The notes under the pieces were generated by a model, which had not been told where the DNA came from, did not search any database, and saw only the letters and a list, made by a program, of their open reading frames with translations. Shown piece by piece: positions 8,138 through 17,767 of a stretch of DNA of 21,821 bases. This DNA comes from Rickettsiales bacterium (GTDB lineage: Bacteria; Pseudomonadota; Alphaproteobacteria; Rs-D84): NCBI GenBank assembly GCA_031259745.1, contig JAIRLB010000024.1, positions 1 to 21,821 on the forward strand, read 5' to 3'. A program made the position numbers and the translations under genes. Position 1 is the stretch's first letter; the number at the start of each line of letters is the position of its first letter.

Positions 8138-8920
8138 TCACTGATCTTGACTGTCATCATACACAAAATATGTTGTTCCAACGTAATTTATTTTCAGATT
8201 TCCTTTGACCGCGGCACTCATATTTCCGTAATAAATCGTTCCGTTGATGCTTATGTTTAACGATGGGTTCGTTTTCTTTGCGTTTCGCAAATATATCAAA
8301 TTGTCGCCATAGTGCAATACTCTTCCGCAATCACCAAATTCATCAGCACCGGCGCCATATCCGACTGTTGTAAGACCCGTCGCACATGCCGTGCGCGTTG
8401 TTGCGCCGGCCGCAGACCAATATCCGGCGCCGACGCTCTGCCCGTCTATTTGGGAATGTTGGCTGATAACCGGCGCCCAATATCCACCTATGCACGAAGT
8501 CAAGTTATAGTTATCGCAGCCAGCAATTGAATTGCCGTTATATATGGCTGATGTTCCCAAGCCGGATGTATAATAGCAATCTCTTGTGCCGTTGCAATAA
8601 GAGCCGTTATATACGAGACCTATTTTGGCGCAATGATATATGCTGGTTGCGGCACTGCATGAGACACCATAAACACAAGCGATTACGCCGAACCCATTGC
8701 TATCGCCCTCTGGACATTGATGACGCCCGTATTCGCCAGATGAAACATACGCATCTGTAAAACCTGGGCAATAATATCCACCATTGCAAGTTTCACACCC
8801 AGAGCCATTCCAATATGTCCCAGCCATACATGAAAGGATGGCCGACGATGCGTTAGAAAAGCAGCTCGTAAAAAATAACGCGGCAAAAGCGAATAAACGA
8901 TAAAAAAACCAGCGTTTGGA
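8138..8920 (-). CDS. exported Cys/Gly-rich surface protein, start codon removed by inverton (OFF)
   Basis: The frame is open from the TAA at 8923-8921 to the TGA at 8138. It encodes SKRW, then a hydrophobic stretch (YRLFAFAALFFTSCF, ending SNASSA) that is a clear signal peptide core, then a Cys/Gly/Tyr/Asn-rich exterior domain with units such as CETCNGGYYCPG. No ATG, GTG, TTG or CTG occurs before Met 8827, which lies after the signal peptide. So in this orientation only a signal-less 229-residue product could be made. The stop codon and missing start both sit in the 66-bp segment between the inverted repeats 8909-8920 and 8987-8998. Inverting that segment gives a 274-residue pre-protein starting MSGKPMIFSTKKAQ. 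The mature part resembles the protein at 17102 in style; function unknown, probably cell-surface. Confidence 0.75.
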   Translation of the reverse strand, partial: SKRWFFYRLFAFAALFFTSCFSNASSAILSCMAGTYWNGSGCETCNGGYYCPGFTDAYVSSGEYGRHQCPEGDSNGFGVIACVYGVSCSAATSIYHCAKIGLVYNGSYCNGTRDCYYTSGLGTSAIYNGNSIAGCDNYNLTSCIGGYWAPVISQHSQIDGQSVGAGYWSAAGATTRTACATGLTTVGYGAGADEFGDCGRVLHYGDNLIYLRNAKKTNPSLNISINGTIYYGNMSAAVKGNLKINYVGTTYFVYDDSQDQ

Positions 8921-8998
8921 TTAGGCAATACAAGACAAAAACAAATGTCCGGAAAACCAATGATTTTTTCTACAAAAAAAGCACAGTCCAAACGCTGG
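8909..8998. repeat. candidate invertible DNA element (inverton), 12-bp inverted repeats
   Basis: CCAGCGTTTGGA (8909-8920) and TCCAAACGCTGG (8987-8998) are perfect inverted repeats around a 66-bp segment. Each repeat is exactly four codons (SKRW) in the Cys-rich gene's frame. On the plus strand the segment holds ATG 8945, which reads through the right repeat as MSGKPMIFSTKKAQSKRW. On the minus strand the codon just inside the left repeat is TAA. Inversion replaces that stop with 14 in-frame codons and a start. No recombinase gene is in the window. The alternative reading, a large-loop terminator because T7 follows the left repeat on the minus strand, does not explain the restored frame. Confidence 0.7.
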
Positions 8999-9082
8999 CT
9001 TAGATTGTACATATCATTTTGTCTACTTTATTCAGAAAATACAAGAGGAAAAATGAATAATGTTGGCGTTTTATTTCAATCA

Positions 9083-9982
9083 TTATCCCTTAAACTGCTC
9101 ACTGACTTTGATTGTCAGTTTTCCTATCAGTTCTTGCATCTGCATGCGAGTTTCAAATTTCAGAATAATCTCCCCTGCCCCGCCGCGCTTTTCACGCAAT
9201 TTTGCCGGCATGCCCAAACATTTTTTTATATTAACTTCAATTTCCTTGACTTGGGCATAAGGCATCGAATTTGATGAAAAAGACCGGCTTTTTGATGAAC
9301 GGATTGAACTTTTGACTTTCTTCTCCGTATCAGCCACAGATAATTTATTTTCGATAATTTCATGCGCCATCGCCTCTGCATTTTCTGCAACTGCAATGGT
9401 TCGCCCATGAGATGCGCTTATTCTGCCCTGCTCTACCATATTTTTAACGGCTTCGGGCAAAGCATCCAGACGAATAATATTTCTAATATAGCTCTCCGAT
9501 TTTCCGATTAAACGCGAAACATCGGCCAGCTCATACCCGCATTTTTCCATCAGGTTCTTATAAGCGGATGCTTCTTCGATCGGATTCAGGTTTTCACGCT
9601 GAACATTTTCAATTAAGGCGATCTCCATCGCGTTTTCATCTGTCAGAGTCTTTACCAATGCTGGTATTTCCACCAATCCCGCCATTTTACTGGCACGAAA
9701 ACGGCGTTCGCCGGCAACTATTTCATATTGATGCGGACGTCCCCTGATACTGCGCAAAAGTATTGGCTGCAAAACGCCCTTTTCTTTGATGGACGCCGCC
9801 AAATCCTCCAATTCGCTTATATCGAAAGTTTTTCGCGGCTGGTCCGGATTAGCTCCGATTTGTATCAATGGGATTTGCCTGACGGCAACGCGCTCACTGC
9901 CAGCCAAAACAGAAATATCCGGGATATTACCCATATCCGCTTTCAAATCCGCCAAGCCTTTGCCTAATCCAAATTTAGACAT
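9083..9982 (-). CDS. parB: chromosome partitioning protein ParB
   Basis: CTP-dependent DNA clamp that loads at parS and spreads, working with ParA to segregate origins. 299 residues: the typical N-terminus KFGLGKGLADL, the ParB/Srx CTPase domain with GERRFRA (box II) and NVQRENLNPIEEA, a helix-turn-helix around LADVSRLIGKSESYIRNI that reads parS, and a C-terminal dimerisation domain. SD AAAGGA precedes the ATG. It begins 14 nt after the parA stop, so parAB is an operon. Length is normal. Confidence 0.97.
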   Translation of the reverse strand: MSKFGLGKGLADLKADMGNIPDISVLAGSERVAVRQIPLIQIGANPDQPRKTFDISELEDLAASIKEKGVLQPILLRSIRGRPHQYEIVAGERRFRASKMAGLVEIPALVKTLTDENAMEIALIENVQRENLNPIEEASAYKNLMEKCGYELADVSRLIGKSESYIRNIIRLDALPEAVKNMVEQGRISASHGRTIAVAENAEAMAHEIIENKLSVADTEKKVKSSIRSSKSRSFSSNSMPYAQVKEIEVNIKKCLGMPAKLREKRGGAGEIILKFETRMQMQELIGKLTIKVSEQFKG

Positions 9983-17101: not shown

Positions 17102-17767
17102 TTATTCGTCGGTTAACCCCCTACCGATGTTGCCTGCATTCTTGCTTTTTATCTTTATGCTTATGTACGTGCTGTCACCGCCATACATCGCACCGACCGT
17201 TTGCAAGTCGCACACGGGCATGCATTTTCCATTCCATATCACAACTTCGGTTCCGAATTTCTTTCCTGCTGTCGGACTTTTTGTGTCGTCGGGTTCATTT
17301 TCTCCGCACAAAATATTCCAGCAAATCCCATCGGACTTAGATGAGGTTTGGGACAGCCCGTTGCATGATATGCATTTTTTATAATCCACTGTTCCATCCG
17401 ATTTGCCCTCAAAATAGCTTCCTTCGGGACAACGTCTGGCCCAGCATTTTTTTTCTTCATTCATTACGATCACCGTAATCAAGCTATCGGCGCCATCAGA
17501 TGCATCCGGACACCAGCCGCCGTCTTCTTCCCCCCACCGGTCATTACACCACCACGTCCAATCGCAGCGGTTGCATTTCTTCTGTTTGCCTGGATTCGAT
17601 GACAATATCACGTGGCCCTTGCTGTGCGTTTCATCCACACCGCCGTCGCATCCGCATCCATGCGTCCTGCCCCAATAATCTGTCACGATATCATCGCCGC
17701 TGCATTTCGCAAACACGCTTATGGGTAACAGCGCGAGCGCGAAAATTAAAAACAATATTTTTTTCAT
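17102..17767 (-). CDS. secreted Cys-rich protein downstream of a structured leader
   Basis: 221 residues: a signal peptide (MKKILFLIFALALLPISVFA), then a Cys/Trp/Gly/Asp-rich mature part with pairs such as CNRCDWTWWC, CWARRCPEG, CISCNG, CWNILCGE and CMPVC, likely disulfide-bonded outside the cytosol. No family is recognised beyond its general likeness to the protein at 8138. SD AAGGAGG lies 7 nt before the ATG, one of the strongest in the window. It is preceded by a terminator and a folded RNA with its own promoter (17786-17998), so expression is probably attenuated. Function unknown; extracellular or surface location is inference. Confidence 0.8.
   Translation of the reverse strand: MKKILFLIFALALLPISVFAKCSGDDIVTDYWGRTHGCGCDGGVDETHSKGHVILSSNPGKQKKCNRCDWTWWCNDRWGEEDGGWCPDASDGADSLITVIVMNEEKKCWARRCPEGSYFEGKSDGTVDYKKCISCNGLSQTSSKSDGICWNILCGENEPDDTKSPTAGKKFGTEVVIWNGKCMPVCDLQTVGAMYGGDSTYISIKIKSKNAGNIGRGLTDE

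Follow-up and report, generated by a model that had tools for sequence, protein, structure and literature searches.

Short DNA elements of about 85 bp, dispersed through the small genomes of one alphaproteobacterial family, very probably form a multi-locus system of site-specific inversion that, as judged from their sequences, switches the start codon and signal peptide of exported proteins. One element lies at positions 8909–8998 of the window, by which we mean the whole 21,821-nucleotide stretch of contig JAIRLB010000024.1 that was analysed. The initial annotation had read this site as a start-codon and signal-peptide inverton in its OFF state; relatives, including copies in the ON state, bore that reading out, but the recombination unit is a 30-bp site (12-bp arm, 6-bp core, 12-bp arm) with a matching central dinucleotide, not the 12-bp arm, and what had been taken for a single switch locus is one of many such elements in the genome containing the window (G000) and its relatives.

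In the mechanism that we propose, a constant promoter would face the ~85-bp cassette, and a small Mpi-family serine recombinase (candidate SR-A, below) would recombine two inverse arm–6 bp–arm sites at their central 2 bp. In the ON orientation the left site would be palindromic (arm1–core–arm3), and the transcript would carry a Shine–Dalgarno sequence, a start codon, a basic n-region and, in some genomes, half of the hydrophobic core, with this coding part joined in frame to what remains of the signal peptide and to the mature exported sequence. In the OFF orientation the n-region stretch would lie antisense, leaving the gene without a served start or a complete signal peptide. We infer that inversion is reversible and current, and that it switches export.

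Anatomy of the element in the window

Perfect 12-bp inverted repeats at 8909–8920 and 8987–8998 enclose 66 bp (15 nt at 93% when extended). On the minus strand, the frame of the Cys-rich protein (8138–8917) holds the signal-peptide core FFYRLFAFAALFFTSCFSNASSA and then the mature part; it is closed by TAA at 8921–8923 and, as read from the sequence, has no ATG, GTG or TTG up to the hydrophobic stretch. On the plus strand, the ATG at 8945 opens a reading frame that continues in frame across the right arm. Inversion in silico yielded a 274-residue open reading frame (ORF) beginning MSGKPMIFSTKKAQSKRWFFYRLFAFAALFFTSCFSNASSA, in frame without any change and with a signal peptide that was good by eye. 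On each of these points the initial annotation was correct.

Comparison with the family placed the left recombination site, on the minus strand, as a degenerate arm1 (GTACAATCTAAG, 8999–9010), the 6-bp core CCAGCG (8993–8998, central AG at 8995–8996) and arm2 (TTTGGACTGTGC, 8981–8992), the inner half of which is degenerate. The right site, on the same strand, consists of an intact arm3 (GCCTAATCCAAA, 8915–8926), within which lies the TAA that ends the gene frame as the segment is oriented now, and the core CGCTGG (8909–8914), whose central CT at 8911–8912 is the inverse of the left AG. If exchange occurs at the central dinucleotides, in silico inversion turns over positions 8913–8994, and the plus-strand stretch 8945–8998 would supply the start codon and 18 codons (MSGKPMIFSTKKAQSKRW) as the N-terminus of the Cys-rich protein. 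The ribosome-binding region of this ATG (8927–8944, plus strand) is weak when compared by eye with its paralogues, which have AGGAG, GGGGG and similar; at the Shine–Dalgarno position the window reads AAGACA versus AAGGAG in close paralogues.

A putative promoter lies outside the invertible segment on the minus strand, with a −35-like hexamer TTGTAT at 9039–9044 and, at 17-nt spacing, a −10-like hexamer CAAAAT at 9016–9021. We read both from the sequence on the basis of conservation: upstream of an ON copy in the same genome (G000:C8) the hexamers are arranged alike, as TTGTAT-17-TAAAAT. A generic promoter scan of 8800–9150 reported no promoter.

Searches of NCBIfam (E 1e-5) and Pfam (E 1e-3) assigned the Cys-rich protein to no family. 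Four relatives were found, each covering 31–38% of its length, and the common part appeared by eye to be C-terminal. A second Cys-rich ORF in the window (17102–17767, minus strand) has an ordinary start and a signal-peptide-like N-terminus (MKKILFLIFALALLPISVFAKCSGDD...).

A dispersed family with matching cores and frames

The 12-bp repeat is not significant by itself, and we rejected it as evidence on its own, as at least one inverted pair of 12 bp at 40–120 bp spacing occurred in 43/300 first-order simulated windows. What raises the window repeat above chance is its homology to a dispersed element family with shared anatomy. A DNA search of the window's own genome and that of its genus sister (G001) aligned the segment and its promoter-side flank to another copy in G000 at 75% over 140 bp (E 4e-19). 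The initial annotation had pointed to a search for further arm copies and for a nearby recombinase. Degenerate family arms were indeed present elsewhere, but there was no exact copy of the window arm beyond its two occurrences here in the 676-kb, 69%-complete G000 assembly, and the likely enzyme, an Mpi-family serine recombinase, is on another contig. Allowing up to 2 mismatches, the window arm matched 87 places versus 48 for a reversed control, and some of these were arms of other copies. With the family arm TTTGGATTMGGCA at up to 1 mismatch, we counted 27, 26, 91 and 40 places in G000, G001, G141 and G012, against 1, 3, 2 and 2 for the reversed control.

The element was matched in 12 of the 60 genomes searched for it. 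A family-wide inverted-repeat pattern occurred in 61/183 genomes, a tally that is not an element count, as the pattern also caught many pairs resembling ordinary coding sequence. Public metagenome-assembled genomes also carried the element in its symmetric form: two isolates recorded as Rickettsiales bacterium, and records titled uncultured Alphaproteobacteria bacterium, uncultured bacterium or bacterium. The isolate name of one of these records points to wild mice. We tentatively take the element-bearing family to be gut bacteria of the order Rs-D84; other genomes of the family measure about 0.5–1.1 Mb. According to the accessible part of one study, this order has reduced genomes and the lifestyle of an obligate symbiont or parasite (PMC12306168).

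With the gene drawn on the right, the elements share one layout, which runs from the promoter through arm1 GCCTAATCYAAA, a 6-bp core of variable sequence, arm2 TTTGGATTAGGC (symmetric form), ~53 bp, arm3 GCCTAATCCAAA and the inverse core to the gene. The distance from the start of arm1 to that of arm3 was 84–86 bp in 87/91 elements. In the window and across the family, the invertible segment is bounded by inverted sites, as in an inverton; the promoter-like TTGTAT/TTGCAC-17-TAAAAT/TATAAT, read from the sequence, appears to sit outside it, unlike in promoter inversion of the Mpi type.

The cores, which differ between elements, match at their centre. The central 2 bp of the left and right cores agreed in inverse orientation, as expected of partner sites for a serine recombinase, in 90/91 elements (L084 being the exception) and in 32/33 distinct core pairs, whereas random re-pairing of left and right cores gave a mean of 25 and a maximum of 38 matches in 2000 trials. 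Four genomes fetched later added 18/18 matching pairs. Core positions 1–2 matched in 47/91 (shuffled mean 43, maximum 53), and positions 5–6 in 67/91, above chance (shuffled mean 38, maximum 52; 19/33 distinct pairs); the core centre is thus the most strictly matched part but not the only one. This pattern favours a serine recombinase with a 2-bp overlap over a helix or a 6-bp tyrosine-recombinase overlap, although positions 5–6 also exceed chance. The 91 elements in the core counts are 97 pairs minus seven (six non-elements or reverse readings, namely L048-, L084-, L096+, L121-, L139+ and L175+, together with L096- at 77) plus the window. For the frame counts below, the six named pairs were dropped, L096- at 77 was kept and the window was left out. 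In both sets, copies within a genome are paralogous and so the trials are not independent.

In G001, a set of elements (L008, L010, L012, L029, L031, L036, L037 and L039, with L040 similar) has CCATC. left cores with a central AT, which is its own reverse complement and therefore leaves the polarity of recombination undefined. Several of this set lie upstream of genes that encode AEIA(S/A)K behind a signal peptide.

For the frame test, each element was inverted in silico and the first start codon with a strong Shine–Dalgarno sequence in the flipped interior was used. Such a served start was present in 46/91 elements, 45 of which had enough gene sequence. After inversion, 42/45 stayed open for at least 150 nt beyond the junction, compared with 4 and 5 when the gene side was shifted by +1 and +2, and an 11-residue hydrophobic stretch (Kyte–Doolittle mean of at least 1.6) then followed in 40 of the 42. 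By genome, the frame was kept in 25/25 elements of G141, 11/13 of G000, 3/3 of G012, 1/1 of G086, 0/1 of G001 and 2/2 of others, with none testable in G116. The three that were not open in frame were two in G000, L009 and L202 (for L202 it was the +1 frame that stayed open), and L174 in G001, for which the start-finder chose differently from an earlier reading. In the later genomes, the flipped interior offered a served start in ten copies, and all ten ran at least 544 nt past the junction. In silico, then, inversion alters the coding sequence itself, as in an intragenic inverton.

Signal peptides were judged by eye and by hydrophobicity. In L153 of G141, the flipped part encodes MRKTGIFILGILSYANV and the gene side GLFSAPAMA-ETC, which splits the signal peptide itself in two. 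The public record P0006 is the L153 protein as recorded from the OFF reading (MPNPNVGLFSAPAMA...), without most of the signal peptide. The start-codon role covers just part of the element family, given that about half of the elements have no served start (45/91, for which the flipped interior alone was scanned, and 7/18 of the later pairs, for which both interiors were). Moreover, on the arm3 side in the OFF orientation, an in-frame ATG (MPNP..., without a Shine–Dalgarno sequence) remains in many relatives, so that OFF may mean a shortened product instead of none. Another public protein, P0005, has MPNPKGG at its N-terminus, resembling what an element of this kind encodes when read in the OFF orientation, and retains a hydrophobic stretch, as known from the protein record alone.

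Copies in the ON orientation were found in several genomes, among the loci examined. G141:C19 shows TTGCAC-17-TATAAT, a palindromic site, GCGGAGG, a GTG start and MRISGIFILGILLYPNVGLAETVV..., 132 residues in all. In the window's own genome, G000:C8 has TTGTAT-17-TAAAAT, the site, ATG and MSRKSGVFENKKTDIIIGRFFRPVFAFALLFISTSSWAVT..., with an ORF of just 82 residues. G001:C6 encodes a 274-residue product, its right-hand site having no clear inverse core; G066:C1, in a three-contig genome, encodes 295 residues; and G141:C30:23777 has the ON orientation as well, truncated by a contig end. The public protein P0019, known from its protein record alone, has an N-terminus like the ON product of L179.

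OFF dominates in the copies seen (25 OFF copies in G141 and 14 in G000), which is also what locked or decaying copies would give. Among 18 matches to the G000 element interior within that genome, C8 was ON, C47 (L236) was in the ON orientation with an early stop, and 16 were antisense to the gene side; C39 (L232) among the latter lacks a recognisable arm3, and some are cut by contig ends. The initial annotation had looked to related genomes for both orientations, and both were present, but only across paralogues or different genomes: in these single assemblies, no one locus was seen in both. In G000, C6 (L009/L228) and C47 (L236) share gene-side sequence and have interiors in opposite orientations; C47 seems rearranged on its promoter side. 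Contigs of G141 end within a few hundred bases of the element in C5, C10, C13, C23, C27, C41, C48, C55, C61, C66, C72 and C73, as is expected for repeated or mixed-orientation sequence.

A paralogue pair in G116, on C40 and C17, carries the interior in opposite orientations. The two copies are alike in 98/100 bases before the element and 133/134 after it, and their interiors agree in 74/80 columns if one is inverted and in 55/81 otherwise. Each copy has a start of its own that lies beyond the element. The same sites here (L192:1005–1140 on C17 and L196:1063–1198 on C40) surround an intrinsic-terminator-like hairpin without a served start, with the hairpin and its T-run in the sense strand in one orientation. 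It is possible, from this arrangement, that the pair is an invertible terminator switch, and the same recombination sites may also flip terminators.

Candidate recombinase and rival explanations

We found a candidate enzyme, SR-A (G000:C40:6312–6899), that scored 301.8 bits against NF009949, the Mpi master invertase family (cut-off 272), and whose nearest solved relatives are the DNA invertases 4m6f and 3uj3. A second small serine recombinase of this genome, SR-B (G000:C3:7798–8226, L218), scored 253.6, below the Mpi cut-off. Serine recombinases of PF00239 were present in all ten genomes tested, the gene being split in G012. In G035, C1 has eight PF00239 matches, five of them with open frames of more than 500 residues (large serine recombinases).

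In the enzyme scan, 124/173 family genomes had a match and 51 a close relative: 50 with a best E of at most 1e-86, a threshold chosen once the list had been inspected, plus G012, which was included manually on account of its split gene. Strict sites were found in 29/173 genomes, by a pattern tally that counts palindromic sites twice. At least one strict site was present in 25/51 genomes with a close relative versus 4/122 others, and at least two in 21/51 versus 0/122 (Fisher 2e-13; 20 of the 21 remain without G012). The enzyme and site scans covered 173 genomes each and were taken as one set, with 29 genomes without a match not listed by name in the enzyme scan. Fewer than two strict sites were present in 30/51 enzyme-bearing genomes; where SR-A occurs without strict sites, arms of a variant form may be used, as in G035. 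SR-A is the likely enzyme of the system.

Three other accounts of the family were weighed. A non-switching palindromic repeat, which we liken to a MITE or a Rickettsia palindromic element, could have spread upstream of genes in either orientation; the high copy number (in G141 the pattern matched 40 times forward and 32 times in reverse), the palindromic ends and the near-fixed length (84–86 bp in 87/91) would suit it. Insertion would, however, carry arm1 along, whereas arm1 and the promoter keep their gene side and just the interior flips, and such a repeat leaves the co-occurrence with one recombinase subfamily, the core rule and the frame rule unexplained; we consider it very unlikely. Even more unlikely, in our estimate, is an RNA leader in which the repeats form the stems of an attenuator or a start-codon-masking hairpin, with DNA inversion uninvolved. 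The window transcript does fold strongly (−32.9 kcal/mol, z −4.0; L192 z −6.0, L196 z −6.5), pairing is possible between arm1 and arm2 and between arm2 and arm3, a T-run is often next, and core positions 5–6 match above chance. Yet a helix should pair all six core positions, of which 1–2 are at the shuffled level and 3–4 nearly invariant; an antisense served start codon that comes into frame after inversion would be unexpected; and in one paralogue pair matching flanks enclose the interior in opposite orientations. Of Rfam families, none matched L013, L151, L153 or L207 at the gathering score, with two matches (E up to 1) far below it. RNA may nevertheless play a role in addition to inversion.

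Least probable of all is that XerC/XerD, not a serine recombinase, recombines the sites. The core of dif is 6 bp long, and the arm–6–arm site resembles dif; two tyrosine recombinases of G000 also resemble XerC and XerD. The central region is not identical over 6 bp, though: the outer core positions (1–2 in 47/91, 5–6 in 67/91) are not kept as a 6-bp overlap requires. Both G000 proteins look like housekeeping Xer, their best model scores being 291.7 (XerC) and 286.6 (XerD), each below its cut-off, with the second passing NF001399 (general tyrosine recombinase). Furthermore, tyrosine recombinases (PF00589, above the Pfam cut-off) were present in 10/10 genomes tested, against strict sites in 29/173. 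We rejected all three readings of the family: RNA attenuation, a transposable repeat and recombination by Xer. A further account concerns the window copy alone and is compatible with a working family elsewhere: the gene would start at the arm3 TTG (MPNPN...), with slippage at the T7 run as the switch, or would have a plain frameshift, the inverted repeat being a relic. That start is in frame in many relatives, and a start of this kind is where the public proteins P0005 and P0006 begin; in the window it is off the gene frame by one, beside the T7 run. It has no Shine–Dalgarno sequence upstream, however, and the inverted product is in frame without change, and we regard this account as rather unlikely. 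Inversion by a serine recombinase remains our preferred reading of the family. As read from its sequence, the window copy is currently OFF; its cores obey the rule (AG/CT), while arm1 and half of arm2 are worn. The poor Shine–Dalgarno sequence, the CAAAAT −10 box and the worn arms make its present switchability uncertain. It may be decaying, and we put the chance that it still switches at slightly better than even.

Relation to known inversion systems and possible role

Master invertases of the Mpi type and intragenic invertons are already known, and the start-codon and signal-peptide cassette is a variant on them. The Mpi master invertase of Bacteroides fragilis was reportedly described by Coyne et al. 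in 2003. The system here resembles it in the recombinase family (NF009949), in the apparent use of one enzyme on many dispersed sites and in its surface or exported products. In the Mpi system the inverted segments carry promoters, whereas here the promoter appears to be outside and the segment comprises the ribosome site together with the start codon and a portion of the signal peptide. Intragenic invertons, said to be described by Chanin et al. in 2024, likewise alter a protein by inversion within its coding sequence; they differ, on a comparison by title only, from a standardised cassette that is repeated at many loci and provides each gene that it serves with a start codon and a portion of its signal peptide. 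Hin crosses over at 2 bp in the centre of a palindromic site, and systems of the Hin/Gin type use a Fis-bound enhancer. They share with the present system a small serine recombinase and, for Hin, a central 2-bp crossover like the one proposed here, but are single-locus switches of a promoter or a tail fibre.

DNA inversion also joins a signal-encoding 5′ part to alternative surface-protein bodies in the Mycoplasma vsa and vpma systems. On the accessible part of the source, the nearest described case is the UU172/MBA locus of Ureaplasma, where, as here, inversion joins a signal-bearing N-terminal part, encoded at the 5′ end, to alternative surface-protein bodies (PMC3047005). In Ureaplasma and Mycoplasma one N-terminal or expression part serves several partners, whereas here each gene has its own promoter and 85-bp switch. 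An open-licence literature search, outside which the main intragenic-inverton paper fell, returned no paper describing start-codon and signal-peptide inversion cassettes.

If our reading is true, matching central dinucleotides provide a sequence rule that predicts which sites recombine with which, and annotation would depend on the orientation that happened to be assembled, as the example of P0006 and L153 illustrates. More tentatively, and at somewhat less than an even chance, one Mpi-family invertase may draw one or a few exported proteins at a time from a silent reserve by flipping cassettes while every promoter stays on, an archive resembling those of antigenic variation, with its sites common to a second, terminator-flipping set. 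The bacterium using such an archive would probably be a small-genome organism dependent on a host or on other cells. If the inversion reading itself is right, phase variation can target start codons and secretion signals across many genes by way of a single standardised 85-bp cassette, with the promoters left as they are.
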